A DNA stretch of 12,286 nucleotides from Anaerolineales bacterium (GTDB lineage: Bacteria > Chloroflexota > Anaerolineae > Anaerolineales > Villigracilaceae). The position numbers were made by a program, and so were the translations under genes. The stretch covers positions 1 to 12,286 of the forward strand of contig JAICRQ010000049.1 of NCBI GenBank assembly GCA_025966435.1, read 5' to 3'. Positions 1 through 12,286 of this stretch are shown here, piece after piece. A model generated the notes under the pieces. The model did not search any database. It worked only from the letters and a program-made list of their open reading frames with translations, and had not been told where the DNA came from. How positions within the stretch are numbered: position 1 is the first letter of the stretch; the number at the start of each line of letters is the position of its first letter.

Positions 1-29
1 CGAATTGTGATCAGCGACTTTGTATCCAT
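1..29 (-). CDS. Probable start of the next gene of the Tad cluster (partial, leaves the window)
   Basis: An ATG at 29-27 on the minus strand opens a frame reading MDTKSLITI up to the window edge. It is preceded by an AGAGG ribosome-binding sequence four bases upstream and by a strong extended -10 box about 45 bases upstream. A second ATG at 33-31 in another frame (MYGYKVADHNS) is also open to the edge, but the Shine-Dalgarno then directly touches the start codon, so it is less likely. In Tad loci the gene after cpaF is usually tadB, an inner-membrane protein of the type II secretion F family. That identity is inferred from position only, since nine residues cannot show it. Confidence 0.3.
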
Positions 30-71
30 ACATCCTCTGAGACGCCCAGGATAACAAGCGGCGTTTCTCCG

Positions 72-80
72 ATTATAGCA
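72..80 (-). promoter_or_regulatory. Extended -10 promoter downstream of cpaF
   Basis: Read on the minus strand, 80-72 is TGCTATAAT, a perfect TATAAT preceded by the TGn extension that lets sigma-70-type polymerase do without a good -35 box. No convincing -35 hexamer is seen 16-18 bases upstream. Transcription would start near position 65 and give a leader of roughly 35 bases before the candidate ATG at 29. The box lies in the 65-base gap after the cpaF stop, so the next gene may be expressed apart from cpaF. The call rests on sequence match alone. Confidence 0.45.
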
Positions 81-94
81 GAGGGGATGGAATA

Positions 95-1414
95 CTATCG
101 CCTTTGATGCAGGTTGATTCCACCAGGAGGCATGAAGACTTCGGCGCCAAGTTTGAATCCGGCAGCTTCCAGCCGCGGCGTAAAGATCGGTCGGATGCCT
201 GTTGCCCTCAGTTCGCCCAGAATCTTTCCCTCTGCTCCCAGACCGGTCTGCTCGAACTTGAAGATATCGGTCAGGACCACAATATCCCCTTCCATCCCGA
301 CCACTTCCGTAATGGCGGTCACCTTGCGGGAGCCATCTTTAAGACGCGTTTGCTGGATAATGAGATCCACCGCCGAGGAAATCTGCTGGCGCACCACTTT
401 CAATGGCAGGTCCATGCCAGCCATCAACACCATCGTTTCCATACGTGAGATCGCATCACGCGGGGAATTGGAGTGTAAGGTGGTCAGGGAGCCATCGTGA
501 CCGGTGTTCATCGCCTGCAACATATCCAGGGTTTCACCGCCGCGACATTCGCCGACCACGATACGGTCCGGGCGCATGCGCAGAGAGTTGCGGACCAGGT
601 CACGGATCGTGACCGCGCCCCTTCCATCTGTGTTCGCGACCTTGGTCTCCATGCGCAAAACGTGCTCCTGCTGGAGCTGCAATTCCGCAGCGTCTTCAAT
701 GGTAATGATCCGTTCCTCTTCCGGGATAAAACTGGAGAGAACGTTCAAAAGCGTGGTCTTGCCCGAACCTGTCCCTCCGGAAATGACGATGTTCAAGTGC
801 GCCAGCACACAGGCACGGATGAACTCTGCCATCTGCGATGTGAGTGAGCCATAATCGATCAACTGCTGAATGGAGAGTTTATCCTTCTTGAACTTACGAA
901 TGGTAATGGAAGGTCCATCGATGGACACAGGGCGAATCACAGCATTCACGCGCGAGCCATCTGGCAGACGCGCGTCTACCGTGGGGGTATCGGCATCCAC
1001 GCGGCGACCGAGGGGGAGAATGATCCGGTCGATCACGCGCAGGACATGGTCGTCATCATCGAATGTAACCGGGCTTTTGATTAGTCTGCCCTTTTTTTCA
1101 ATAAAAACCTTCTTAGGTCCGTTCACCATTACTTCGCTAATATCCTCATCTTCCAGCAAAGGTTGGATCGGGCCGAAGCCGGTTACTTCATCAAGGATCT
1201 CATGAAAGATCTGTTTGCGCAGATCCTCAGGCAGGGATATTTTCGTCTGCACATAGACTTCATTCAAGCGCTGCTTGATGGTATCGCTTTGATCGCCAAG
1301 CTGTAACTGTTCGCCCTCCATAGAACGGCTGACCTGGTCGATCAGGTAGCGCTTCAACTTTAGCAGGTCGGCGGAAGTTAATCTTGTAAAATTAGAGGCA
1401 ATGGGGGTTGTCAT
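95..1414 (-). CDS. cpaF: Tad pilus/secretion ATPase CpaF (TadA), type II/IV secretion ATPase family
   Basis: This is the cytoplasmic hexameric ATPase that powers assembly of Tad/Flp pili. The 439-residue product has an N-terminal domain (about 1-180, including the family-typical LEDEDISEVMVNG stretch) and a RecA-like motor. The motor shows the Walker A GGTGSGKT at 213-220, an Asp box IITIEDAAEL at 236-245, a Walker B region RPDRIVVGECRG at 281-292 and a His box TGHDGSLTTLHS at 304-315. All the catalytic motifs look intact and the length is normal for CpaF. The ATG at 1414 was chosen over an upstream in-frame start because GAGGAGA lies at the right distance and because 1414 overlaps the stop of the preceding small gene in an ATGA arrangement, implying translational coupling. 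Family assignment is firm; the pilus role is inferred from the family and from the TadZ-like neighbour. Confidence 0.95.
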   Translation of the reverse strand: MTTPIASNFTRLTSADLLKLKRYLIDQVSRSMEGEQLQLGDQSDTIKQRLNEVYVQTKISLPEDLRKQIFHEILDEVTGFGPIQPLLEDEDISEVMVNGPKKVFIEKKGRLIKSPVTFDDDDHVLRVIDRIILPLGRRVDADTPTVDARLPDGSRVNAVIRPVSIDGPSITIRKFKKDKLSIQQLIDYGSLTSQMAEFIRACVLAHLNIVISGGTGSGKTTLLNVLSSFIPEEERIITIEDAAELQLQQEHVLRMETKVANTDGRGAVTIRDLVRNSLRMRPDRIVVGECRGGETLDMLQAMNTGHDGSLTTLHSNSPRDAISRMETMVLMAGMDLPLKVVRQQISSAVDLIIQQTRLKDGSRKVTAITEVVGMEGDIVVLTDIFKFEQTGLGAEGKILGELRATGIRPIFTPRLEAAGFKLGAEVFMPPGGINLHQRR

Positions 1415-1707
1415 GATGATCTCTCCTCGCTTGAGTTCTGCTCGGGGAGCACCCAAATAATATGCGAACGCCGAACAGCCAGGAAAGGCGCTTGGAAGAG
1501 CGTCTGTCCATCCGGTCCCATCACACTGACATCGGTCATCGCCAGGAAATTCTCGTTGAGGTCCAGCTCATCTTTGATACGCTGGTCCCTGCGAACGTGA
1601 ATTCGACCGCGAATCAAGTGCGTGGTTGTCTGCACCGTGGCTGCGATGGAATTTTTCGATACTATATCGGTAAAAATCTTGCCTTTTTCGTCGTATTCAA
1701 AAGTCAT
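1411..1707 (-). CDS. Small uncharacterised protein translationally coupled to CpaF
   Basis: This frame encodes 98 residues starting MTFEYDEKGK. The ATG at 1707 has a GAGGAAG Shine-Dalgarno at good spacing. A longer in-frame reading to 1806 has no such signal and begins with unlike sequence, so the short form is preferred. The body reads like a small beta-rich domain: a TTHLIRGRIHVRRDQRIKDE stretch at about 27-46, then NFLAMTDVSV at about 52-61 and FLAVRRSHIIWVLP near the end. There is no signal peptide and no membrane segment. I do not recognise the function. The pattern of a basic strand, an F-L-A-x-T-D-V core and a closing hydrophobic strand resembles small domains of unknown function seen in other bacteria, but that is only an impression. 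Its stop overlaps the cpaF start by four bases, so the two proteins are probably made together, which points to a pilus-related role. Confidence 0.8.
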   Translation of the reverse strand: MTFEYDEKGKIFTDIVSKNSIAATVQTTTHLIRGRIHVRRDQRIKDELDLNENFLAMTDVSVMGPDGQTLFQAPFLAVRRSHIIWVLPEQNSSEERSS

Positions 1708-1866
1708 AGCTTCCTCTTCGAATGCGGGTGTGCTGCAAAGGACTTCTTGTTTATCATTCCCTTGGCACAACCGTGAAAATAATTGTAAGGATGATCGCTG
1801 TATCATTTGTTGGTAACCCGCCTGGTAGTTTAGCCTAAATTATCTGTAAATCACCTTTCACTTTCT

Positions 1867-3051
1867 TTAAGAAGCAGTTTGCGTCTCCTGGCGCATACGA
1901 CGCGCCAGATTCACGATTTCTTCTGCTACCCCCTTTAGGATAATAGATGCTGTATCGGTGGGGTATTTCAAGGTAATCGGTTGGTTCAGATTATTGGCAA
2001 GAGCAAAATTCCCGCCCATGTAAGGCATAGTCGTCTTGATCGGCAAGCCAATGATCTCCTCAGCCTGGGATTTGGTCATGCCTTCCAGCCCGAGGGCGCG
2101 GTTCAAAATGACGTAGATGTTCTGGCTGTTCACACGTTGCGTCTGGAGATAGTCATAAACGGTTTTCGTGAGCTTGACCGTGCTCTGGTCGGTGGAAACA
2201 ATCAGGACGATCAGGTCGGCTTTTTGAATCAGAGGCCGGCTGATGCGCGAGAGAGAACGTCCAATATCCAGGATGACGAAATCGTACGCGGAACAGAGCA
2301 TCCCCACGATCTGATTAATTCGTTCTCCCTTGATGCTGTTTCCATGCTCAGGGTCGGGAGAACCAGTCAGTACCTGGTATTGCCAGCCCTCGGGTTTCGG
2401 CAGATTCTTATAGAAGTATGCGGCGTTCGTCTCCCCAGCGGGCAAGTCTGCTACTGTGACGAGATTCAGCGCTCCCTCACTCCCGACAATTGGACCAATG
2501 GAGCCAATCGGCAGGACCAGGTCAGCAACAACCACGCGCGCCTCCGGCTGGCTTTGTTGAATATTCATCGCCAGGTTGGCGCAAAGCGAAGACGTCCCTG
2601 TCCCGCCCTTCGCGCTGAGAAATACGATCAATAAGCCGCTTTTTTCAGCTGCTTCAGGTGCATCTTCCTCTGGCGTCTCCGTTGTAAATACATGTTTAAG
2701 GATTTGTTCGAGGGACGGAATGGCTTGCGACGATTTAACCAGATATTCATCCACTCCCGCGCTCAGGCAAGATTCTCTGCGGGCGGGCCCAGGATCGCTC
2801 GAAAGCGCAACGAGCCGCACCTTCTCAGTGCGGGCATCATTACGCAATTTTTGAATGAACTTTTTTTCGGGGATATCTGCCAGGACAGGATCGAACAGCA
2901 CAAGGTCAGGCTCATGACTCCAAGCCAAAATAAGGGCTTCTTTACCGGTTGGCGCTTCTAGAATCTCGAATTGTTTTGCTCGCAAATACTTCGCAAGAAA
3001 GATACGACTGGCTGGATTTTCATCAACGATAAGGATAGTTTTACCAACCAA
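1867..3051 (-). CDS. tadZ: CpaE/TadZ-like pilus localisation protein: receiver domain plus MinD/ParA-type ATPase
   Basis: This 394-residue protein has two domains. Residues 1-120 form a response-regulator receiver domain with the acidic pair D10/E11, a candidate phospho-acceptor D54 (DLVLFDPVL), S84/S85 and the conserved lysine K106 (YLVKS). Residues 138-394 form a MinD/ParA-superfamily ATPase with the deviant Walker A KGGTGTSS at 148-155, ADLVLP around D177 and FVILDIG ending near D262. TadZ/CpaE proteins of this architecture mark the cell site where Tad pili are built. The start is a TTG at 3051, because the receiver fold begins immediately there and an AGGAGG lies five bases upstream. Only 24 bases separate it from the preceding response-regulator gene, so it is very likely in the same operon. 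Many TadZ receivers are degenerate; this one keeps the phosphorylation residues. It could be named cpaE as well as tadZ. Confidence 0.9.
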   Translation of the reverse strand: MVGKTILIVDENPASRIFLAKYLRAKQFEILEAPTGKEALILAWSHEPDLVLFDPVLADIPEKKFIQKLRNDARTEKVRLVALSSDPGPARRESCLSAGVDEYLVKSSQAIPSLEQILKHVFTTETPEEDAPEAAEKSGLLIVFLSAKGGTGTSSLCANLAMNIQQSQPEARVVVADLVLPIGSIGPIVGSEGALNLVTVADLPAGETNAAYFYKNLPKPEGWQYQVLTGSPDPEHGNSIKGERINQIVGMLCSAYDFVILDIGRSLSRISRPLIQKADLIVLIVSTDQSTVKLTKTVYDYLQTQRVNSQNIYVILNRALGLEGMTKSQAEEIIGLPIKTTMPYMGGNFALANNLNQPITLKYPTDTASIILKGVAEEIVNLARRMRQETQTAS

Positions 3052-3075
3052 AGCAGCCTCCTCAGGATTGCGTTT

Positions 3076-3771
3076 TCAATCTTCCATAGGGGGCATCAAG
3101 TATCCCAACCCGGAGCGTGTGACGATGTGTTTGGGAGTGTGCGCATCATCCTCCAGCTTTTGGCGCAACCGGGCGATGCTCACCCATAGAATCTCTTTAT
3201 CATTGCGATACTCTGGTCCCCAGACACTGCTCAACAGATCTTCCGACGTCATGATTTTGCCAACATGGTGGGCAAATTGTAGCAAGAGACGATATTCGGT
3301 GGCAGACAGCGAGACCGCCTGCTCACCGCGCCAGACCTCTGCCCGGGCAAAATCGATCTTAAGATTATCATGCGTGAAAAATCGTGTCTGTCCCACCTCA
3401 GTAGGAGGCTGAGCCCGCCGTAAAACAGCGCGCACGCGCGCCAGCAACTCCGTCGCAGAAAATGGCTTGACCAAGTAATCATCCGCACCCAGGTCCAGAC
3501 CGCGGACGCGATCCTGCTCATCCCCTTTGGCGGTGAGGATAATGATCGGTGTGCTGGAAAATTCCCGGATGCGCTGAGTGGCGCCAAACCCATCCAGCTT
3601 TGGCATCATCACATCCATCAGGACGAGGTCAATCGGCTGGTCCGAAAAAACACTGACGGCTTGCATTCCATCCTGCGCCGTAACGACTTCATATCCCTCT
3701 GTGCGCAGATTGGCCTCGAGCAAACGTAGATAACGAGGTTCATCATCCACGATCAGAATGCGCTTTGCCAT
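3076..3771 (-). CDS. OmpR/PhoB-family response regulator (receiver plus winged-helix DNA-binding domain)
   Basis: This is a 231-residue transcription regulator of ordinary length for the family. The receiver domain (about 3-117) has D9/D10, the phospho-acceptor D53 in LVLMDVMMP, T80 in IIILTAKG and K102 in DDYLVKPF, so it should be phosphorylatable. The C-terminal winged helix (about 130-229) carries the usual signature, with ATEYRLL, then SSVWGPEY, IARLRQKLE and a closing RSGLGYLM. The ATG at 3771 follows AAGGAGG at four bases, one of the best ribosome-binding sites in the window. It lies 15 bases after the GAF histidine kinase and 24 bases before the TadZ-like gene. The likely partners are the two kinases upstream. 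Its target promoters are not visible from the sequence; Tad genes are an obvious guess. Confidence 0.95.
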   Translation of the reverse strand: MAKRILIVDDEPRYLRLLEANLRTEGYEVVTAQDGMQAVSVFSDQPIDLVLMDVMMPKLDGFGATQRIREFSSTPIIILTAKGDEQDRVRGLDLGADDYLVKPFSATELLARVRAVLRRAQPPTEVGQTRFFTHDNLKIDFARAEVWRGEQAVSLSATEYRLLLQFAHHVGKIMTSEDLLSSVWGPEYRNDKEILWVSIARLRQKLEDDAHTPKHIVTRSGLGYLMPPMED

Positions 3772-3786
3772 AATGCCTCCTTTTAA

Positions 3787-4974
3787 TTATCTGGATGAAT
3801 TAATGGGCAGTTCGATCAGGAATGTAGTTCCGTGACCGGGCGTGGATTCTGCCCAAATCTTACCACGATGTGCCTGAATTATTTGTTTGCAAATGTAGAG
3901 TCCCAGTCCGGTTCCGGTAATCGTCTTTTCGCCGCGCACCCTGTAAAAGCGTTCAAAAATCAGGGGCAGAGATTCTTTCTGGATTCCGGGGCCGTGATCG
4001 ATGAACGAAATGACAATCTTATCGCCCACCTGATTCAAAAGAATATCGATTGAGGAACCCGGGGCGTACTTAAGCGCATTCGTAAACAGGTTTTCAAAGA
4101 CCTGCGCCAGCCGCACACCGTCTCCAGAAATGGCAGGGACAGATTCAAGCTGGGTATTCACATCCAAGTCTTTATGACGGGCGCGTATTCGCATGGTTAC
4201 ATCTCGTAAGACGCCATCCAGCCTGAGGGGCTGGAATCGCAGTGGGAGCGTCTTGCTTTGCAGACGCGCGGATTCCAGTACATTCTCGATGAGGAGGGAG
4301 AGCCGGTCTGTTTCCTCATCAATGATCGTCAGGAATTCTTTCTGGGTTGCCTCATCCCAGTTTGTATCCGGCCGCAGCAGGCTGGTGCTGTAGCCTTTGA
4401 TAAACCCCAGAGGAGTACGCAATTCATGTGAGATCGTGCTGACAAAATCCTCCTGCAATTGCATCTGACGCTTGAGATCCTCAAGTTCCTGCTGCAATTC
4501 CGCCCAGGCCGCGCGTTCGAACAGCATCGAAAGCATTTCCCCTGCCAGAGAGGCAACGGCAATATGTTGATCTTCATAGACGGGCCCGCCAAAGCGCACA
4601 AACACCATCGCGCCTCTCACCAGGGTTCCCTCGCGAATGGGCAGACCCAGAAGATATGCCTGGTGCAGCCGATCATCTGGCGAAACATCTGGCTTTGGGT
4701 CGCGCAGTAGAAGCTGCCCCTTTTTCACCACTTGCCCGGCGAAGTCCTCGCCCCAGGCGGCATCCGCTTCTGCGGTTTTCGAACGGCCTACGGCACGTGC
4801 ATAGACGATTTCCAGGTTCTGCGTCGTCTTATCTTGTAAGTAAACTGCTACATTATCGAATACAAACTTTTTCCGTAGGGCGACGATGAACTTCTCGATA
4901 CTATTCCGCGAATCATCGGAGCGAGAGGCGATCAGCATCAATTCCTGCAAGTAGGAAAGAGTCTGACTGTCCAT
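3787..4974 (-). CDS. Soluble sensor histidine kinase with GAF-like input domain
   Basis: The 395-residue protein has a GAF-like sensor region at about 15-155 and a short coiled linker at about 156-176. A HisKA domain follows with the phospho-accepting H183 in the H box STISHELRTPLGF, and then an HATPase_c domain. The kinase core shows the N box (FENLFTNALKYAPG, N299 region), a G1 box DHGPGI at 326-331, an F box IFERFYRV and a G2 box TGTGLGLYICK at about 353-363. All catalytic elements are present. No transmembrane segment or signal peptide is seen, so it senses an intracellular cue. The ATG at 4974 is only five bases after the stop of the previous kinase gene, and the GGAG sits unusually close to the ATG (2-3 bases), so translation may depend on coupling. 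Its cognate regulator is probably the OmpR-type protein encoded next. The ligand of the GAF domain is unknown. Confidence 0.92.
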   Translation of the reverse strand: MDSQTLSYLQELMLIASRSDDSRNSIEKFIVALRKKFVFDNVAVYLQDKTTQNLEIVYARAVGRSKTAEADAAWGEDFAGQVVKKGQLLLRDPKPDVSPDDRLHQAYLLGLPIREGTLVRGAMVFVRFGGPVYEDQHIAVASLAGEMLSMLFERAAWAELQQELEDLKRQMQLQEDFVSTISHELRTPLGFIKGYSTSLLRPDTNWDEATQKEFLTIIDEETDRLSLLIENVLESARLQSKTLPLRFQPLRLDGVLRDVTMRIRARHKDLDVNTQLESVPAISGDGVRLAQVFENLFTNALKYAPGSSIDILLNQVGDKIVISFIDHGPGIQKESLPLIFERFYRVRGEKTITGTGLGLYICKQIIQAHRGKIWAESTPGHGTTFLIELPINSSR

Positions 4975-4979
4975 TGCTC

Positions 4980-6005
4980 CTAGTTTGCATCCATCGCAAC
5001 CAGCAGAGGGAATTTGAACGTCGAACCGCGTCCTTCAACCGACTGGACTTCGATCATCGAGCCATGCGCTTCAACGATCTGGCGCACCAGAGAAAGCCCC
5101 AGGCCTGTGCCGCCATAACGGCGCGTGGAGGAGCCATCCAACTGGTGGAACGGCTCGAAGATGTCATTGAATCGGTTGGCTGGAATTCCAATCCCTGTAT
5201 CCGTCACCGAAACGATCACAAGATTCTCCCCTTCGCGCTTCACGTTCACCACCACGCGTCCACCCGATGGCGTGAATTTGATTCCGTTATCCAGGAGTTG
5301 GTTCAACACCCAGGCGATCTTCTGCGGATCCGCCTGCACAGGAGGCACATTCTCGTCGATGATGACATTCAAGCTCACACCGCGTTCTTCCGCTTTAGAG
5401 GCATAGGCTTTAATAGAAAGATTCACCAGCCGGCGCAGATCCACGTTTTCATGCATGACGCTGAGCTCACCGCGCGAAGCCAGTGAGAACAAGATCAGGT
5501 CTTCGATCAGCGCCTCCAGCCTGCCTGTAGATTGCTGGCTGACTTGTAAGGCATGGCGTTGTTCATCCGTGATCGACCCGAGCGATTCCGTGACAAGTAA
5601 TTCCACATAGCCTTTGATGTGGGTCAAAGGAGTACGCAGCTCATGGGAAATGTTCGAGACGAAATTTGCTTTCAACTGGCTGAGTTCTGAAACGCGCTCC
5701 AGAGCCTTCTGCAGTTCTGCGGTGCGTTCCTCCACGCGGCGCTCCAGCGTTCGGTTCGCAGCCTGTAAAGCAGAACGCAACTGGATGATCTGTTCGGTCA
5801 CTGCCTGATCGAGATCCGCGCGTTCCAATAGTTTGAGATCGAGGAGCGCCTGTCCAAGCAGGATGGAGTTGCCCTTGGCAATTTCTTCCTGTTGGTAATT
5901 GAGCGCGTTCTGCAAACTTTCGGCCGAAATGAGACCTTTTTGGATGAGATATTCCCCCATGCGGGGCACGAGCATTTCAGGTGTAAGTCGCTGTTGCTCT
6001 ACCAT
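4980..6005 (-). CDS. Soluble sensor histidine kinase with N-terminal MshEN-like tandem motif
   Basis: The chosen ATG at 6005 gives 341 residues. Residues 15-38 fit the 24-residue motif R-L-G-x6-G-x6-L-x3-L-x2-Q (R15, M16, G17, G24, L31, L35, Q38). Residues 49-72 repeat it in weaker form (L49, L50, G51, L65, V69, Q72). This tandem pattern is that of the MshEN / GspE N-terminal domain, which in MshE-type ATPases binds c-di-GMP. A coiled coil (about 75-112) leads to HisKA with H121 in SNISHELRTPL and an HATPase domain with N240 (LLDNGIKF), DTGIGIP at 269-275 and GGTGLGLSL at 298-306. No membrane segment is present. The longer reading to 6113 is rejected because its extra 36 codons lie inside the amidohydrolase gene. 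No good Shine-Dalgarno precedes 6005; the start lies 7 bases after that gene's stop, so re-initiation is likely. c-di-GMP binding is an inference from the motif. Confidence 0.9.
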   Translation of the reverse strand: MVEQQRLTPEMLVPRMGEYLIQKGLISAESLQNALNYQQEEIAKGNSILLGQALLDLKLLERADLDQAVTEQIIQLRSALQAANRTLERRVEERTAELQKALERVSELSQLKANFVSNISHELRTPLTHIKGYVELLVTESLGSITDEQRHALQVSQQSTGRLEALIEDLILFSLASRGELSVMHENVDLRRLVNLSIKAYASKAEERGVSLNVIIDENVPPVQADPQKIAWVLNQLLDNGIKFTPSGGRVVVNVKREGENLVIVSVTDTGIGIPANRFNDIFEPFHQLDGSSTRRYGGTGLGLSLVRQIVEAHGSMIEVQSVEGRGSTFKFPLLVAMDAN

Positions 6006-6012
6006 AAGATTA

Positions 6013-7599
6013 TCAGGTAAACAGGTGAACCCATTCTCCTCCCACCATTGTAGCTGAGGACTGCATCGTAAGCAAATCTTCAGGGGCACAGGTGAAGGGA
6101 TCTTGCGAAGCATCCAGGACGATCAAATCGGCCAGAAAATTTGGAGCGAGACGACCCAGGCGGTTTTCCATGTAGGCAGCGTAAGCGGGACCCAGCGTGA
6201 ATCCCTCCCAGGCTTCCGCCATCGTGAGTTTCTGTTCAGGGTACCAGCCTTCGGGAGAGGGAGAGCCGTCCGCGCGGCGGCGGGTGACCGCGGCATACAA
6301 CCCCAGAAAAGGATTGGGCGACTCGACCGGCGCATCTGAGCCCAGGGCAAGGCGCGCCCCGTACTCGAGCTGCGTTCTTAACGCGTAGGCGAGGCGCGAT
6401 CGCTCGCCCCAGAACGCGTCTGCCATCAGCATATCGGATGTAGCATGGATGGGCTGCATGGACGCAATCACATTCATCTTACCGAGACGCGCAGCGTCGT
6501 CGGGATGAATCACCTGCACATGCTCGATGCGATGACGAAGCGCGGGCAGATGATTTTCACGTTCATACTTGCGCAATTGCTCGTAGGCGTTGAGCACTTC
6601 GTGGTTGGCGCGATCGCCAATGGCATGAACCGTGAGCCCCAGACCGACTTGCGCGGCTTTTCGTCCGTGCTCGAAAAGCTCCTCACCATCCATGTTAAGG
6701 ATACCGCGATTGTCGTCTTCACCGATATAAGGCTGGAACATCGCAGCCGTGTGCGGACCGAGAGCGCCATCCATAAAGACTTTGATGGAGCCGATGCGCA
6801 GCCAGTCATCACCAAAACCTGCGCGCAGACCAAGCTCATACGCTTGATCGAGTAATTCCACCGGGATATTCTTGAGCACACGCAGCTTGAGTTTTCCCTG
6901 CGCGTGCAGTTGCTGGAGCGCCATAAAAGAATCGCGGCGGTCGAAATCGTGGACGCCGGTCAACCCCATCCTCCACAGGATGGATTGTGCCTTTTCCATC
7001 GCATCTGCGATCTCAGCAATGGTCGGTTCGGGAATCATATCCCCAACCAGCTCCATCGCGGTTTCCAACAGGATGCCGGTAGCATTGCCTTTATCGTCGC
7101 GCTGGATCTGTCCGTTTTGGGGATGAGGCGTTCGTGAGGTGATCTTTGCCAGCTTCAGCGCGGCGATATTTGCCCAGGCGGCATGCAACGATTTGGCAGT
7201 GAGATAAACCGGATTGTTCGGTGCGATGGCATCCAGCTCCGCGGCGGTTGGCCAGGCGCCCCACACATTTTGATTCCACCCGTGACCTAAAATCCATTCG
7301 TTTGGTTTTGCCTGCCGGACGCGTTCTTCCACACGGCGCAGGCATTCCTCTTTCGTATCGGTTTCACAATCGATCTTTTGCAGACTCAGGGCGTAATTCT
7401 TCAAATGCAAATGTGCATCCGTCAGCCCGGGCAGGATGACACGCCCTTTCATATCCTGTTTTTCTGCATCTGGATATTGCGACAGGAGAGTATTTGATTC
7501 TCCAACTGCGAGAATCCGCTCGCAGTCAATAACTATTGCCGAGCCAACAGGATTCGATGGGTGCTGGGTATGGATGTAAGCGTTGTAAAGAAGCTTCAT
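6013..7599 (-). CDS. Metal-dependent amidohydrolase, YtcJ-like (Amidohydro_3 family)
   Basis: This 528-residue cytoplasmic hydrolase belongs to the amidohydrolase superfamily. It shows the N-terminal metal ligands H63 and H65 in LTDAHLHL, a lysine K273 in SIKVFMDGALG, H325 in TVHAIGDRAN, H360 in RHRIEHVQ and D422 in LGSDAPVESPNP, followed by the C-terminal return of the small beta domain (NFLADLIVLD). The length suits the YtcJ / N-substituted formamide deformylase group. The natural substrate cannot be told from the sequence. There is no signal peptide. The ATG at 7599 lies one base after the parB stop with no clear ribosome-binding site, which suggests translation coupled to parB. It has no obvious link to chromosome partitioning or pilus assembly and may simply ride in the operon. 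Confidence 0.93.
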   Translation of the reverse strand: MKLLYNAYIHTQHPSNPVGSAIVIDCERILAVGESNTLLSQYPDAEKQDMKGRVILPGLTDAHLHLKNYALSLQKIDCETDTKEECLRRVEERVRQAKPNEWILGHGWNQNVWGAWPTAAELDAIAPNNPVYLTAKSLHAAWANIAALKLAKITSRTPHPQNGQIQRDDKGNATGILLETAMELVGDMIPEPTIAEIADAMEKAQSILWRMGLTGVHDFDRRDSFMALQQLHAQGKLKLRVLKNIPVELLDQAYELGLRAGFGDDWLRIGSIKVFMDGALGPHTAAMFQPYIGEDDNRGILNMDGEELFEHGRKAAQVGLGLTVHAIGDRANHEVLNAYEQLRKYERENHLPALRHRIEHVQVIHPDDAARLGKMNVIASMQPIHATSDMLMADAFWGERSRLAYALRTQLEYGARLALGSDAPVESPNPFLGLYAAVTRRRADGSPSPEGWYPEQKLTMAEAWEGFTLGPAYAAYMENRLGRLAPNFLADLIVLDASQDPFTCAPEDLLTMQSSATMVGGEWVHLFT

Positions 7600-7600
7600 A

Positions 7601-8449
7601 TTATGTCAGTTTTTCCAGAAGGGAATCCAGCTCTTCATCCGAATAATAATAGATGGTGACGGTGCCACCCTTTTTGCCATGCCTGAGAGAGACCTTCGTT
7701 CCCAGACTCGAACGGAGGCGGCGTTCGATATCGTTCACATCGGCGCTGATACCGGATCTTCGTTTATGGACCGGTTTTTGGCCCGTATATTTCCTAGCAA
7801 GCGCCTCGGTCTGACGGACGCTCAGATCGAGGTTGATGATTTGGTTCAACAAAGTTTCCTGGGCTTTTGCCGTGCTCAAAGCCAGCAGTGCGCGTGCGTG
7901 GCCTTCTGTAATCTTTTTATCTACGAGAGCCTGCTTCACCGCCGCGGACGCGTCGAGCAGGCGCAATGTATTGGTGACAGCCACACGACTTTTCCCCACG
8001 CGTGAGGCAATGGTCTCATGCGAAAGTTTGAATTCCCTGGCAAGATGCTGGTACGCTTCTGCTTCCTCGAGGGCGTTTAAGTCCGCACGCTGGACATTTT
8101 CGATGAGCGCCAGTTCGAGCAACTGCTGGTCGGTGGCGTGACGGATCACAACTGGAACCGTTTTCAAGCCAGCTTTGCGCGCAGCTTGCAAGCGGCGCTC
8201 GCCAGCAATGAGTGTGTAAATTCCGTTCTTGCCCGGAGAAACAATCAAAGGCTGGATTACGCCATGCTCACGAATTGATGAAGCGAGGCTTTCCAACTCT
8301 TCAAAATCAAAATGCTCGCGCGGCTGACGCGGATTGCGCTGGATCGATTCAACAGGGATTTGTGTGACGCCGCCTTCCCCGCCAGTCGCTTTCTGACCGG
8401 ATGGGATGAGGGCATCGAGTCCTTTGCCAAGGCCGGAACGTGGGGGCAT
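7601..8449 (-). CDS. parB: Chromosome partitioning protein ParB (Spo0J family)
   Basis: ParB binds parS sites near the origin and, as a CTP-dependent sliding clamp, organises them for segregation by ParA. The 282-residue product begins MPPRSGLGKGLDALIP, the usual ParB leader. It has the N-terminal CTP-binding domain with GERRLQAARKAG (GERR at 83-86) and ENVQRADLN around 117-125, a helix-turn-helix at about 142-165 (SHETIASRVGKSRVAVTN), and a C-terminal dimerisation segment (about 236-282, ending DEELDSLLEKLT). The ATG at 8449 was chosen over an in-frame start 33 bases upstream because AGGAG stands eight bases before it and the family leader starts here. It follows parA across a 95-base gap with an inverted repeat that ends right beside this ribosome-binding site. 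No parS-like 16-mer was seen in the window. Confidence 0.96.
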   Translation of the reverse strand: MPPRSGLGKGLDALIPSGQKATGGEGGVTQIPVESIQRNPRQPREHFDFEELESLASSIREHGVIQPLIVSPGKNGIYTLIAGERRLQAARKAGLKTVPVVIRHATDQQLLELALIENVQRADLNALEEAEAYQHLAREFKLSHETIASRVGKSRVAVTNTLRLLDASAAVKQALVDKKITEGHARALLALSTAKAQETLLNQIINLDLSVRQTEALARKYTGQKPVHKRRSGISADVNDIERRLRSSLGTKVSLRHGKKGGTVTIYYYSDEELDSLLEKLT

Positions 8450-8470
8450 GAACAAATCTCCTTTTTCAAA

Positions 8471-8550
8471 CACGAAGGGCACGCACCTGTCCTGTCGGTG
8501 TCAGAGAAGAACAGCAGGAATTAAGAACTCCGTGTCCTTCGTGCTTAATT
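8471..8550 (-). repeat. Inverted CACGAAGG-type repeat between parA and parB
   Basis: On the minus strand the parA stop region carries CACGAAGGACACG (8543-8531), and 47 bases later CGTGCCCTTCGTG (8483-8471), its reverse complement at 12 of 13 positions. Three further pairs (one G-U) can extend the stem at its base. The first arm is also flanked by AATTAAG and CTTAATT (8550-8544 and 8525-8519), a 7-base inverted pair that overlaps the parA stop codon. The sequence type resembles short dispersed CACGAAGGACACG elements met between genes in several bacterial genomes, which is a recollection and not a search result. In mRNA the stem would end about ten bases before the parB Shine-Dalgarno, so it may adjust the ParA:ParB ratio or protect the message. 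Confidence 0.6.
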
Positions 8551-9324
8551 AACCACTACTCCATCGCCTTGCAGTAATTCCTTCGCCAGCGATTCATAAG
8601 CGTGCGCGCCCACGGATGTTGGAGCGTACGTAGAAATGGGCAATCCATATGAGGGCGCTTCTGCAAGGCGAATGCTGCGCGGCACAATGCTTTGAAAAAC
8701 CAACCCGGGGAAGTGATTCTTGACTTCTTTCACCACATCGGTAGAAAGATTCGTGCGCGGGTCGAACATCGTCAGGATCACGCCGCGTACGCGCAAGCCA
8801 GGGAAGAGAGAAGATTGGACGCGCTCAATCGTCTGTGTCAGCTGACCTAACCCTTCCAGGGCAAGATACTCACACTGCACCGGCACCAGCACGCCGTCCC
8901 TGGCTGCCACAAGTCCATTGACCGTGAGGATACCAAGCGAGGGCGGACAATCGATCAGGATGTAGTCGTATTTTCCATCAAGGGTCCCCAACGCGTTCTT
9001 GAGACGAAATTCGCGCCCATCCTCTTCGACGAGCTCAATCTCCGCGCCCGCCAGCGATGGAGACGATGGGAGCAGCGAGAGCTTGAGGCGTTCATTATAA
9101 AGAATTGAAGAGACAGGAATATCCGTATAGAGTAACGCATCATACGTGCTGCCCTGCACTGTGTATTTATCCACCCCAAGGCAGGACGTGGCATTTGCCT
9201 GCGGGTCGAGATCCACGACGAGCACTTGCTGGCCCATTTGCGCGAGATATGCACCGAGATTGATGGCAGTAGTCGTTTTCCCGACGCCGCCTTTTTGATT
9301 GACGAGAGTGTAGATGCGAGTCAT
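8545..9324 (-). CDS. parA: Chromosome partitioning ATPase ParA (Soj family)
   Basis: This dimerising ATPase works with ParB to segregate replication origins. The 259-residue protein opens MTRIYTLVNQKGGVGKTTTA with the deviant Walker A KGGVGKTT at 11-18 (signature K11, K16). It continues with VVDLDPQANAT (D40), a Walker B-like YILIDCPPSLGIL with D125, and the DPRTNLS and VPRSIRLAEAPSYG stretches typical of chromosomal Soj proteins. The length is normal and no N-terminal DNA-binding extension of the plasmid type is present. The ATG at 9324 gives the standard start. A longer frame from a TTG at 9366 adds 14 unlike residues and was rejected. No convincing Shine-Dalgarno precedes 9324; the nearest GGAGG is over 15 bases away. 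It lies 69 bases after the PfkB gene and 95 bases before parB. Confidence 0.96.
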   Translation of the reverse strand: MTRIYTLVNQKGGVGKTTTAINLGAYLAQMGQQVLVVDLDPQANATSCLGVDKYTVQGSTYDALLYTDIPVSSILYNERLKLSLLPSSPSLAGAEIELVEEDGREFRLKNALGTLDGKYDYILIDCPPSLGILTVNGLVAARDGVLVPVQCEYLALEGLGQLTQTIERVQSSLFPGLRVRGVILTMFDPRTNLSTDVVKEVKNHFPGLVFQSIVPRSIRLAEAPSYGLPISTYAPTSVGAHAYESLAKELLQGDGVVVN

Positions 9325-9393
9325 GGGTTTAAGTTTGGAGTCAAGGCCTCCAGACTTTAATATCAACGACAGAAGCCCTTGAGTCCACAGTGT

Positions 9394-10245
9394 TTAGGGC
9401 AATATTTCTATCATGCACACTGCCACTTCACCATCGGTGGCAATGCCTTCCAGCCCAGGACGCGTCACAGAACAGGAGGCGAGCATGGTCGCAAAACGTG
9501 TCGCTTCCCAGGGATCGTGTGTATTCAGCAGACGATAAAAAAACGCCGCAGCAAAGACATCTCCCGCGCCGGTGGCATCCACTTCCGTTACCTTGGGGGC
9601 GCGGAATCGGCGGCGGTCTCCGTTCCAATACAACACGGCACCTGCAGCACTTTCAGTCACAACCAGTACCTTCGTGTGCTGCGCCATGTGTTCGATCAGC
9701 TCGTCATCCCCATTTACATCCTCGCGGCTGATTACGACAGCTCCAGCACGGGACAGTGCGATATCCGCATCGTGCCATTCCCCACGGGACACACGGCACT
9801 CTGCGTCCCATTGGCGCATCCAGCCTTGCGGCGTGAGCCCGAGTAGGGTAGGAGAGAATCCCTCTGGCAGGCTTGCATCCATCTCATTCGCGATGGGGCC
9901 AAGGTGGATGATTGGGGCCTGCCGCCATACTTCCGGAACATAACCGAAATCAAGACGTGTAGCTTGGGCGCGCAGGTATTGAACTCGTCCTTGCTTTGTA
10001 TAGATATTTTCGAAGATTGTACTGTTTGGAGATTCAAGTGCGACTACAGGAATATCCCCCAACTGTGCCAGGGATGTTTCGGGTCCCAATGCAGTGACGA
10101 TGCCCACGCGTAAACCCAGGGCTTGCGCCGTCAACGCGGAATATGCGGCTGTCCCACCCAAACGCCAACCATCCGGCGTCAGGTCATGTGCGACATGACC
10201 GACCACGAGATAATCCACAGGCTCTACAACGGCAAGGTTGGACAT
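9394..10245 (-). CDS. PfkB-family (ribokinase-like) carbohydrate kinase
   Basis: This 283-residue cytoplasmic kinase phosphorylates a sugar, nucleoside or similar small molecule using ATP. The C-terminal PfkB signature is clear: VDATGAGDVFAAAF with the anion-hole GAGD at 226-229 and catalytic D229. Near the N-terminus, LGGTAAYSALTAQALG (29-44) is the substrate-side glycine motif. The fold starts at VDYLVVGHVAHD. It is slightly shorter than typical ribokinases (about 300 residues) and the substrate cannot be assigned. The ATG at 10245 has no Shine-Dalgarno; instead a perfect TATAAT ends six bases before it, which fits a leaderless mRNA starting at or next to the ATG. It is the first gene after the jag terminator and is followed by parA, so it may head the transcript that includes parAB. 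Its presence between jag and parA is not part of the textbook origin cluster. Confidence 0.92.
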   Translation of the reverse strand: MSNLAVVEPVDYLVVGHVAHDLTPDGWRLGGTAAYSALTAQALGLRVGIVTALGPETSLAQLGDIPVVALESPNSTIFENIYTKQGRVQYLRAQATRLDFGYVPEVWRQAPIIHLGPIANEMDASLPEGFSPTLLGLTPQGWMRQWDAECRVSRGEWHDADIALSRAGAVVISREDVNGDDELIEHMAQHTKVLVVTESAAGAVLYWNGDRRRFRAPKVTEVDATGAGDVFAAAFFYRLLNTHDPWEATRFATMLASCSVTRPGLEGIATDGEVAVCMIEILP

Positions 10246-10251
10246 ATATGA

Positions 10252-10257
10252 ATTATA
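10252..10257 (-). promoter_or_regulatory. -10 box of a probable leaderless promoter for the PfkB gene and parAB
   Basis: The minus strand reads TATAAT at 10257-10252, then TCATAT, then the ATG at 10245. With the usual 6-7 bases between a -10 box and the start point, transcription would begin at the A of the ATG. The 17-base spacer puts the -35 position at 10280-10275 (CCGCTC), inside the stem of the upstream terminator and not similar to TTGACA. There is no TGn extension. The absence of a ribosome-binding site before this ATG supports the leaderless reading, but no transcript data are available. Confidence 0.5.
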
Positions 10258-10263
10258 CCGTGA

Positions 10264-10295
10264 TAAAACGGTCGGAGCGGTATACGCTCCGACCG
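10264..10295 (-). terminator. Rho-independent terminator after jag
   Basis: On the minus strand a perfect 11-bp stem CGGTCGGAGCG / CGCTCCGACCG (10295-10285 and 10279-10269) encloses the 5-base loop TATAC and is followed by TTTTAT. It begins four bases after the jag stop codon at 10300. The plus-strand reading lacks a T-run after the stem, so it acts only on the beta-propeller-yidC-jag unit. It separates that unit from the PfkB-parA-parB unit, whose -10 box lies seven bases beyond the T-run. Confidence 0.9.
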
Positions 10296-10299
10296 AAAT

Positions 10300-11094
10300 T
10301 CAACTTTCTTTTGGAAGAATCATCACTTTGCGGTAAGGTTCTTCACCGCTGCTTTCTGTTTTTACATCCGGGTGATCGCGCAGGGCAATATGAATGATGC
10401 GGCGTTCGGCAGAGGGCATGGGCTCAAGAGTCTGTCGGCGGCCACTCTTGGCGACCTGGTCTGCTACGCGCTGTGCCATCTGGATTAATTGCTTCTCGCG
10501 GCGATCGCGATAGCCCTCCACATCCACCGTGAGTTGGACAAATTGCTGTTCCTCCTTACCCACGATGAGCGAAGCAATGTATTGGAAGGCACTCAGCGTT
10601 TCAGAGCGCCGCCCGATCAATACGCTCAGGTCATTGCCGCGGATGTCCACATGAATGTTGTGGCGTCCATCTCGCTCTGTCGATCCGTAATGGGCAGACA
10701 CCTGCGCCTGAAGATTGAGCAGATGCAGGAGTCTCGAAACGACAGACTCTGTCCGGTCAAGGAGAGCATCGTGTTCGGGCTGAGCTTCCGCGTCCCGGCT
10801 CAGGGGAGAGGATTGAACAGGAGATGGCTCCGGTTTTCTCTCCACGCGCTGTACTTCCGTTGTGGATGCCGGGGCTGTTTCCGTCCGAGGATTCATCTCA
10901 ACCATCCCGGGCGGGGGATTTACGGTTAGACGGACACGCACCTGTGTCTTTCCTAATCCGAAAAAGCCTTTTGTACCTGCATCCAATACTTCCACGCTGA
11001 CCGCATCTGCTGTGAGTCCCAGTTCGGCAAGTCCCTGTGCGATGGCTTCCTCTACGGTCGGCGCAATGATCTCCAATGTAGTTCGTTGATTCAT
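10300..11094 (-). CDS. jag: RNA-binding protein Jag/KhpB (SpoIIIJ-associated): Jag-N, KH and R3H domains
   Basis: The 264-residue protein has the full Jag architecture. Residues 4-56 form the Jag-N domain with the family motif KGFFGLG at 42-48. Residues 58-112 form a low-complexity linker rich in P, E and S. A KH domain at about 113-190 carries the IGRRSETLSAFQYIAS core (160-175), and a C-terminal R3H domain at about 195-262 has R231 and H235 in ERRIIHIALRDHPDV. KhpB proteins bind RNA in the cytoplasm and in Firmicutes influence cell division, sporulation or envelope synthesis. The ATG at 11094 follows AGGAG at eight bases. It starts 12 bases after the yidC stop, the usual yidC-jag pairing, and is the last gene before a strong terminator. 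The annotation is secure; the RNA targets in this organism are unknown. Confidence 0.96.
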   Translation of the reverse strand: MNQRTTLEIIAPTVEEAIAQGLAELGLTADAVSVEVLDAGTKGFFGLGKTQVRVRLTVNPPPGMVEMNPRTETAPASTTEVQRVERKPEPSPVQSSPLSRDAEAQPEHDALLDRTESVVSRLLHLLNLQAQVSAHYGSTERDGRHNIHVDIRGNDLSVLIGRRSETLSAFQYIASLIVGKEEQQFVQLTVDVEGYRDRREKQLIQMAQRVADQVAKSGRRQTLEPMPSAERRIIHIALRDHPDVKTESSGEEPYRKVMILPKES

Positions 11095-11106
11095 GTCCCC
11101 ATCTCC

Positions 11107-11874
11107 TTACTTTCTCTGTAAGAACTTTGGAATAAGATTATGCCAGTTGGCTTTCCCCTGCATCGCGTATTGGATAATACCCAGGAGATTGCTGGTGATA
11201 AAGTAGACGGAAAGTCCCGCTGCAAAGGTGATGGCAAAGTAGCCGAGCAATAAAGGCATGTAAATGGTCATCATACCGCTCATGGCTGCACTCTGATCAC
11301 CCGGGTTGGCAGCAACGGGCATGGTCAGTTTGGCTTGAATGTAGGTGGTGATGGCAACGACCAATGCCAGGGTCGGGATGCCAATCCCGAAGATCGCAAC
11401 CGCTTCAGGACGGCCAAGATCCATCCACAGAAATTTGCTGTTGAGCGGAATCAGGTCTGAAACATTCGGCAGGAAAAGGCTACGTGAAAGTTTCAACAGA
11501 TCCAGAGGCGTGGATCCCAGCGCACGGATAATACTCTGATATAACGCGATAATGATGGGGAACTGGATCAGAGTCGGCAAACAAGAGCTAAAGGGATTGA
11601 TACCTCGTTCACGATAAATGCGCATTTGCTCCTGCGCAAGTTTTTCGCGATCCTTGGCATACTTCTTCTGAATCGCCTGCCACTCTTTATCCGTCTGGAG
11701 TTCCTGCATAGCTGTCGCGCCCTTCATCTGTTGGGCGTTCAGCGGCCAGGTAACAATACGGATCAGGATTGTGAACAGGATGATCGCCAGACCAAAGTTA
11801 TTTCCGACAATATCGTAGATCCAGATCAGTACATTAACAAAGACAGAGATAAATAAGTCCCATATTTGTCCCAT
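11107..11874 (-). CDS. yidC: Membrane protein insertase YidC/Oxa1 family
   Basis: YidC inserts and folds membrane proteins alone or with SecYEG. The 256-residue product starts MGQIWDLFISVFVNVLIWIY. It has two N-terminal hydrophobic stretches (about 5-20 and 27-45), the conserved intramembrane arginine at R39 in FTILIRIVTWPL, and a charged cytoplasmic hairpin (about 46-95, LNAQQMKG to RERGINPF). The FPIIIALYQSI segment and further C-terminal membrane segments (about 170-190, 205-235) follow. It lacks the large periplasmic domain of proteobacterial YidC, so it is of the short Oxa1/YidC2 type expected in bacteria with one membrane; no lipobox cysteine is seen. The ATG at 11874 is preceded by AGAGGAA and lies 7 bases after the beta-propeller gene's stop. 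A longer frame to 11967 overlaps that gene and was rejected. Confidence 0.95.
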   Translation of the reverse strand: MGQIWDLFISVFVNVLIWIYDIVGNNFGLAIILFTILIRIVTWPLNAQQMKGATAMQELQTDKEWQAIQKKYAKDREKLAQEQMRIYRERGINPFSSCLPTLIQFPIIIALYQSIIRALGSTPLDLLKLSRSLFLPNVSDLIPLNSKFLWMDLGRPEAVAIFGIGIPTLALVVAITTYIQAKLTMPVAANPGDQSAAMSGMMTIYMPLLLGYFAITFAAGLSVYFITSNLLGIIQYAMQGKANWHNLIPKFLQRK

Positions 11875-11881
11875 AGTTCCT

Positions 11882-12286
11882 CTAATTCTCCGGGGTAAAG
11901 GTCCAAACCTGGCGGCCGTCCAAGTCGAGGGCCACAAGGTAAAATTCCGTTTCCAGCGGGGCAACAATGGTCAGGTCTCCCACGGCAACAGGAGTTGTAT
12001 AAATCTTACCGCCAATTTCTTGCGACCAAAGTTCTTTGCCCTCCCGGTCTATCGCATAGATTGAACCCGATTCTGTTGCAAGCAGAATGTGCTCTTCGCG
12101 GACCAGCGGGCTCGCCGTGACGGGACCATTTGGCTTTATAGGCTTCCAGTCCTGAGTGCCGGTGGATGTATTGAACGAGTAGAAATTTCCATCCACATCG
12201 CTAAAATAAAGTGTATCACCATCCAGGCTGGGCGTGCCCCACACCCAATTTTCTGCATCCACGACCGATTGATGATTTCCTGTAGC
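11882..12286 (-). CDS. PQQ-type beta-propeller repeat protein, C-terminal part (5' end outside the window)
   Basis: The frame is open to the right edge, so only the last 134 residues are seen; a GTG at 12262 could be read as a start but the frame continues upstream of it. Three propeller blades are visible with the usual pattern of a small or acidic turn, an aromatic-aliphatic strand and a closing G-x-x-x-W: LYFSDVDGNFYSF to TQDW, ILLATESGSIYAI to KELW, and FYLVALDLDGRQVW. This is the PQQ-like / BamB-like repeat fold. No PQQ ligands can be judged from the fragment. It ends 7 bases before yidC, so the two are cotranscribed. In a bacterium with a single membrane a BamB role would not apply; a secreted or lipid-anchored scaffold assisting membrane protein biogenesis is possible but speculative. 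Confidence 0.85.
   Translation of the reverse strand, partial: ATGNHQSVVDAENWVWGTPSLDGDTLYFSDVDGNFYSFNTSTGTQDWKPIKPNGPVTASPLVREEHILLATESGSIYAIDREGKELWSQEIGGKIYTTPVAVGDLTIVAPLETEFYLVALDLDGRQVWTFTPEN

Follow-up and report, generated by a model that had tools for sequence, protein, structure and literature searches.

Does a histidine kinase encoded beside Tad pilus genes read the second messenger cyclic di-GMP (c-di-GMP) directly, through a type of receptor domain otherwise familiar mainly from the ATPases of pili and secretion systems? The question is raised by a 12,286-nucleotide stretch of DNA, here called the window, from an Anaerolineales bacterium of the Chloroflexota (GTDB family Villigracilaceae; assembly GCA_025966435.1, contig JAICRQ010000049.1, positions 1 to 12,286). 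On its minus strand, positions 4980..6005 (stop codon included) encode an MshEN_N-HisKA histidine kinase of 341 amino acids, as identified from its open reading frame, domain scans and orthologues. The Met codon at 6005 is the likely start because the longer frame to 6113 enters the upstream gene, whose stop lies at 6013. With a probability of about 0.72, the product is a cytoplasmic, soluble HisKA kinase gated by c-di-GMP via a stand-alone MshEN_N four-helix bundle, its sole recognizable input. MshEN_N homology, the predicted fold, the preservation of ligand contacts, the kinase motifs and the co-occurrence with c-di-GMP synthesis were all established by computation; binding is predicted, and the c-di-GMP signal is probably read directly by the kinase.

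The original prediction had noticed two tandem 24-residue motifs in the kinase N-terminus, and these were found as described. c-di-GMP-type motif I (residues 15-38, RMGEYLIQKGLISAESLQNALNYQ; 5892..5963, minus strand) has the form R15-M-G...G24...L31...L35..Q38, and motif II (residues 49-72, LLGQALLDLKLLERADLDQAVTEQ; 5790..5861, minus strand) the form L49-L-G51...L65...V69..Q72; both were assigned from the sequence, PDB and profile searches, and conservation. They are separated by a 10-residue spacer (residues 39-48; 5862..5891, minus strand), as delimited in the orthologue alignment, and follow the tandem pattern (R/K/L)LGxx(LVI)(LVI)xxG(LVI)(LVI)xxxxLxxxLxxQ with deviations at M16, K58 and V69. 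The resemblance is beyond chance, since a single-sequence phmmer search of all PDB chains with residues 1-95 as the query (E ≤ 10) returned eight distinct sequences, all of them PilF or MshE. The best E-value was 6.7e-7 and the remaining seven were 0.037-0.15, with the GSPII-C stretch of PilF scoring best and the other two PilF GSPII domains aligning too. A 41-sequence family profile gave 17 PDB matches, of which the first 14 (E 3.2e-14 to 0.0053; PilF 3.2e-14, MshE 5.6e-8) were all MshE, PilB or PilF, and the last three were FliJ and two profilins (E 0.16-2.0). Structure prediction agreed: the AlphaFold2 model of the N-terminal domain (predicted local distance difference test score, pLDDT, 81.6) is a four-helix bundle with helices at 16-22, 28-43, 50-56 and 62 onward, and its closest structure match was c-di-GMP-bound MshE (5htl), the N-domains of PilB and XpsE also being matched, at Foldseek E-values that are not significant. 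The kinase N-terminus is thus confirmed as an MshEN_N homologue.

That the likeness reflects chance or generic helical similarity without MshEN kinship is extremely improbable. The weak Foldseek E-values would fit such an explanation, as would the stathmins, coiled-coil proteins that appeared low in the PDB search with profile A1. This profile included the signalling helix that follows the domain and therefore attracted coiled coils; its 12 further matches in the kinase's own genome were mostly limited to the helix, and profile A3 (residues 7-76) was chosen for the surveys for that reason. Once the coiled coil was left out, only MshE, PilB and PilF were matched at E < 0.01.

The remaining point in favor of chance similarity is the Pfam T2SSE_N/MshEN profile (PF05157), which had been named as a check on the original prediction. 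It gave no match above the gathering score in the kinase and none in its own genome, MshEN was absent among the matches listed in Pfam and NCBIfam scans of the kinase N-terminus, and across 61 genomes, the kinase's own included, PF05157 matches occurred in only two and never in the kinase itself. In proteins from those two genomes (L070 and L073), the PF05157 match starts directly after the tandem motif. The same arrangement occurs in two glycosyltransferases, one with the motif at 51-102 and PF05157 at 104-188 (L131) and the other at 26-77 and 79-163 (L133). The model therefore describes MshEN_C and does not span MshEN_N, and its silence on the kinase, where MshEN_C is lacking, is a false negative and not a refutation. 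According to PMC5013675, c-di-GMP is bound mainly by MshEN_N, and the isolated MshEN_N of Vibrio cholerae binds it at 0.35 µM. Other stand-alone MshEN_N receptors may be unannotated as well, as Pfam MshEN skips the half that binds c-di-GMP. G036, a same-family genome that lacks the kinase, carries five PF05157 matches on one contig (C86; L070, L072 and L074-L076), four of them in a 1055-amino-acid frame.

The ligand contacts reported for MshE are R9, L10, G11, L25, L29 and Q32 in motif I and R38, L39, G40, L54, L58 and Q61 in motif II (PMC5013675), and their equivalents in the kinase are R15, M16, G17, L31, L35 and Q38, and L49, L50, G51, L65, V69 and Q72. Their conservation was measured in all 75 kinase-type matches outside the window's own family in a sample of 121 genomes drawn evenly from the order, taken as Anaerolineales. 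The mean entropy was 0.58 bits at the twelve contact positions, compared with 2.05 in the rest of the domain and 1.44 at core positions, and none of 100,000 random position sets was as low as the contacts. An earlier run on loci from peptide-pattern scans gave 0.30 versus 1.67, some of the patterns overlapping contact positions; the repeat used the 75 domains from a whole-genome hidden Markov model search with the family profile, in which a milder bias remains. Both glycines, G17 and G51, are invariant (75/75), L31 and L35 are Leu in 74/75, and position 15 is Arg or Lys in all 75. Q38 is kept as Gln in 69/75 and Q72 in 64/75, and the MshE L58 equivalent is Ile in 47, Val in 27 and Leu in 1. 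The spacer has 10 residues in 62 relatives, 11 in 9 and 6-8 in 4, compared with 5 in MshE, 7 in PilB 5tsg as aligned and lengths from 5 to 14 among the further Chloroflexota sequences listed.

The loss of the leading Arg of motif II had been taken as a sign that binding may be weak, altered or absent, a concern that the comparison does not support. The position (MshE R38) is Leu in 48, Arg in 21, Met in 5 and Thr in 1 of the 75 relatives. These residues come close to the set of Arg, Lys or Leu that the PilF study allows at the motif start; its GSPII-B domain, with Lys and Leu, binds c-di-GMP at 6 nM, and its authors propose that hydrophobic residues there signal very high affinity (PMC11731258). 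In PilF, the double substitution Q190E+Q218E abolished binding (PMC11731258). The Arg/Leu exchange among orthologues is a natural series for the effect of that residue on affinity. An explanation that we consider unlikely is that the kinase carries a degenerate MshEN_N, a docking or dimerization module without nucleotide binding as in Xanthomonas XpsE, by which it senses a partner such as the neighboring kinase. XpsE, however, is changed at G11, I19, L29, R38, G40, L54, L58 and Q61 (PMC5013675), whereas the kinase keeps both glycines, all leucine-type positions and both glutamines. In addition, conservation is higher at the contacts than in the core, and the first residue of motif II is Arg or Leu, residues known to stack on guanine, in 69/75.

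The remainder of the protein is that of an orthodox HisKA histidine kinase, with a phosphoacceptor His in its HisKA domain and the N and G boxes in its HATPase_c domain. Residues 73-110 (5676..5789, minus strand) form a predicted signalling helix, part of a helix modeled over 62-138. Domain scans place the HisKA/DHp domain at residues 112-174 (5484..5672, minus strand), with phosphoacceptor H121 in HELRTP, and the HATPase_c domain at residues 226-333 (5007..5330, minus strand). H121 and N240 are invariant in 43 sequences, DTGIG lies at 269 and GTGLGL at 299. The highest mean hydrophobicity of any 19-residue window is just 1.1 (Kyte-Doolittle); because of this low maximum and the presence of H121, the N box and the G boxes, the kinase looks soluble and active. 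HELRTP includes the acidic residue beside the His, as well as the Thr employed by many bifunctional kinases.

The single helix over 62-138 in the full-length model (mean pLDDT 83.9) carries L65, V69 and Q72 of the predicted site toward its beginning and H121 toward its end. If c-di-GMP gates the kinase as proposed, it would lodge between the two motifs, and its presence or absence would shift alpha4, which carries those three residues. Because the model shows alpha4 continuing without interruption through the signalling helix to the helix of H121, ligand-dependent packing of alpha4 would bias the coiled coil and switch the kinase/phosphatase balance, with no sign predicted for the effect. Binding of c-di-GMP to PilF unwinds the first alpha1 turn and changes the orientation of the subdomain behind it (PMC11731258); in the kinase, the element in that place is the signalling helix. 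Phosphotransfer would go to the OmpR-type regulator encoded nearby and might also reach a CpaE-like receiver, so that the c-di-GMP level would be tied to transcription and perhaps to Tad pilus assembly.

Related genomes were surveyed for the same fusion, as the original prediction had suggested. Among 61 near genomes, 58 carry a kinase match that starts at residue 12 or earlier, the one in G058 being partial; a contig end truncates the match in G004, and no match was found in G036 or G050. In the 121-genome sample, the domain was present in 89 genomes and a kinase-type match in 88, G477 being dropped since its sole match lies in a 683-amino-acid frame; the 88 were counted by domain match, the kinase part being checked where P0001 was searched. 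The kinase family is large, with residues 1-110 matching 2285 of 2892 candidate proteins at E ≤ 0.001. In G032, a 187-amino-acid frame matching kinase residues 4-183, without an ATPase domain, lies just upstream of a full kinase (C170, 14485-16072).

All 88 kinase-type genomes had GGDEF matches, and the kinase-type domain occurred in none of the 20 GGDEF-less genomes (Fisher p 1.6e-14, with no correction for phylogeny). The genomes that lack both belong to three families: all ten of f15, nine of f13 and one of f14. Assembly gaps fail to explain the absences, since three of the f13 genomes, of 2.9-3.2 Mb, have a completeness of 97-99%. The kinase's own genome has 14 GGDEF and 3 PilZ matches, and of the two GGDEF-family matches read, one has GGEEF and the other GGEEL. 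Two observations weigh against a strict link with c-di-GMP: 13 of the 101 GGDEF-bearing genomes have no kinase, and the Tad ATPase CpaF correlates with the kinase too, albeit less tightly (82/88 versus 14/33, p 8.9e-9). The neighboring kinase was used as a probe of the specificity of GGDEF co-loss. It is kept without the MshEN_N kinase in GGDEF-less G458 (86% complete) and likewise in the GGDEF-bearing f8 genomes G453, G481, G488 and G519, and the comparison therefore does not discriminate.

The co-occurrence with GGDEF proteins also bears on the nature of the ligand. That the domain binds something else, for example, cyclic GMP-AMP (cGAMP) or another dinucleotide, or holds c-di-GMP constitutively as a structural cofactor, is quite improbable. 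MshE does bind cGAMP, weakly (dissociation constant [KD], 3.3e-4 M; PMC5013675), and the PilF authors raise a role as a structural component on account of a KD below cellular levels (PMC11731258). The association with GGDEF proteins speaks against this reading, as does the invariance of both glycines, which recognize guanine O6/N7 through their backbone amides.

MshEN fusion as such is already known, given that Wang et al. (2016; PMC5013675) list MshEN with REC, HD-GYP, CheA, CheX, cyclases and Ser/Thr kinases. The kinase appears to represent a new use, an orthodox HisKA kinase with MshEN_N as the sole recognized input, conserved through an order. No literature report of an MshEN-HisKA kinase was found, although the MshEN domain architectures tabulated in the supplement of Wang et al. 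(PMC5013675), which lay outside the search, could include one. The MshEN_N of V. cholerae MshE (5HTL) shares the two 24-residue motifs, the four-helix bundle and the contact positions, but the kinase differs in its HisKA context in place of a pilus ATPase, its lack of MshEN_C, its spacer of 10 and not 5, and the Leu with which motif II begins. That Leu is shared with GSPII-B of Thermus thermophilus PilF, the protein with the lowest E-value among the PDB sequence matches, whereas GSPII-B stands in an ATPase with a C-terminal subdomain and begins motif I with Lys, not Arg. MshEN-CheA fusions (PMC5013675; L139 and L141 here) likewise place MshEN_N inside a histidine-kinase-type protein, but internally and with Hpt, P2 and CheW domains, whereas in the kinase it is the N-terminal input to an orthodox HisKA protein. 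Control of histidine kinases by c-di-GMP is likewise known, Caulobacter ShkA and CckA being described as kinases whose activity is set by c-di-GMP (4.7 µM for CckA); ShkA uses a pseudo-receiver domain and the description of CckA used here mentions no MshEN, whereas the kinase carries MshEN_N.

MshEN_N, often with a long spacer and no PF05157 match, was also found in other proteins of the phylum, including GAF proteins (L119-L121, two with a weak zinc-ribbon match), an FHA protein (L123), TPR proteins (L124 and L128), a small two-copy protein (L126), a PAS-GAF histidine kinase (L129; hhalign probability 95.9), CheA (L139 and L141) and a REC-GAF protein (L138); L122 is a further MshEN_N in a same-phylum genome. 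Frames of 600-780 amino acids matched by A3 were considered as pilus ATPases, and this was rejected for the six scanned with Pfam, namely, the glycosyltransferases L131 and L133, CheA L139 and L141, the PAS-GAF kinase L129 and the REC-GAF protein L138. Glycosyltransferases, CheA, GAF, FHA, TPR and REC proteins of the phylum all carry the module, and the earlier supposition that it had moved from a pilus ATPase is not established. We tentatively propose, at somewhat less than even odds, that Chloroflexota use a Pfam-invisible MshEN_N without MshEN_C as a general plug-in c-di-GMP input (HisKA, PAS/GAF kinases, CheA, GAF, FHA, TPR and REC) and that in Anaerolineales a helix couples it to a kinase of a ParAB-Tad cluster, so that c-di-GMP governs a phosphorelay to a transcription factor and to a receiver-CpaE protein. 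A c-di-GMP-gated kinase as proposed above would connect c-di-GMP directly with two-component phosphotransfer in a Chloroflexota order known here mainly from metagenome assemblies. DUF4388 (PF14332) gave weak, sub-threshold matches over or beside the MshEN_N motifs in L121, L123, L126, L128, L139 and L141, which hints at a helical element in common.

The original prediction of a soluble HisKA kinase with an MshEN-type domain beside Tad genes is supported, and the surrounding genes, all on the minus strand, run in a single direction in the order ParA, ParB, amidohydrolase, MshEN_N kinase, second kinase, OmpR-type regulator, receiver-CpaE-like protein, DUF6812 and CpaF. ParB (7601..8482) and ParA (8545..9366) are presumed identities, named from their sequences, and are conserved neighbors by locus comparison. 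Domain scans identified the amidohydrolase (6013..7599), a conserved neighbor 7 bp upstream; the second histidine kinase (3787..4974), 5 bp downstream, with a weak GAF match below the cut-off and then HisKA-HATPase; the OmpR-type response regulator (3076..3771), a candidate partner; and the receiver plus ParA/MinD-type ATPase (1867..3051), CpaE-like by an NCBIfam CpaE-homologue match below the cut-off. The small DUF6812 protein (1411..1806; Pfam) has a reading frame overlapping the start of the CpaF/TadA-type Tad pilus ATPase (95..1456; NCBIfam TadA 327 bits, cut-off 373), whose true start is probably internal. Intergenic gaps in the cluster are 1-62 bp, with one 13-bp overlap when the CpaF start is set at 1423.

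Neighbors were counted, as matches above 80 bits, at 46 loci matching the kinase N-terminus, many of them cut by contig ends. The second kinase was found at 43, the regulator at 41, ParA and ParB at 37 each, CpaF at 35, DUF6812 at 33, the amidohydrolase at 31 and the receiver-CpaE protein at 23; ParA/ParB and the amidohydrolase are linked to the kinase about as tightly as CpaF. A possible role of the kinase in the Tad pilus is inferred from this linkage. Six of the 88 kinase-bearing genomes have no CpaF match at 1e-60, and in two of them (G045 and G466) ParA, ParB, the amidohydrolase and CpaF are absent within the 19.0 and 16.0 kb examined; the kinase persists without CpaF and is therefore not solely a Tad accessory. 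In the CpaE-like receiver, the acidic pair, Asp and Lys are present on reading of the sequence and the phosphorylation residues look intact, and a phosphorelay might act on Tad assembly directly through this receiver.
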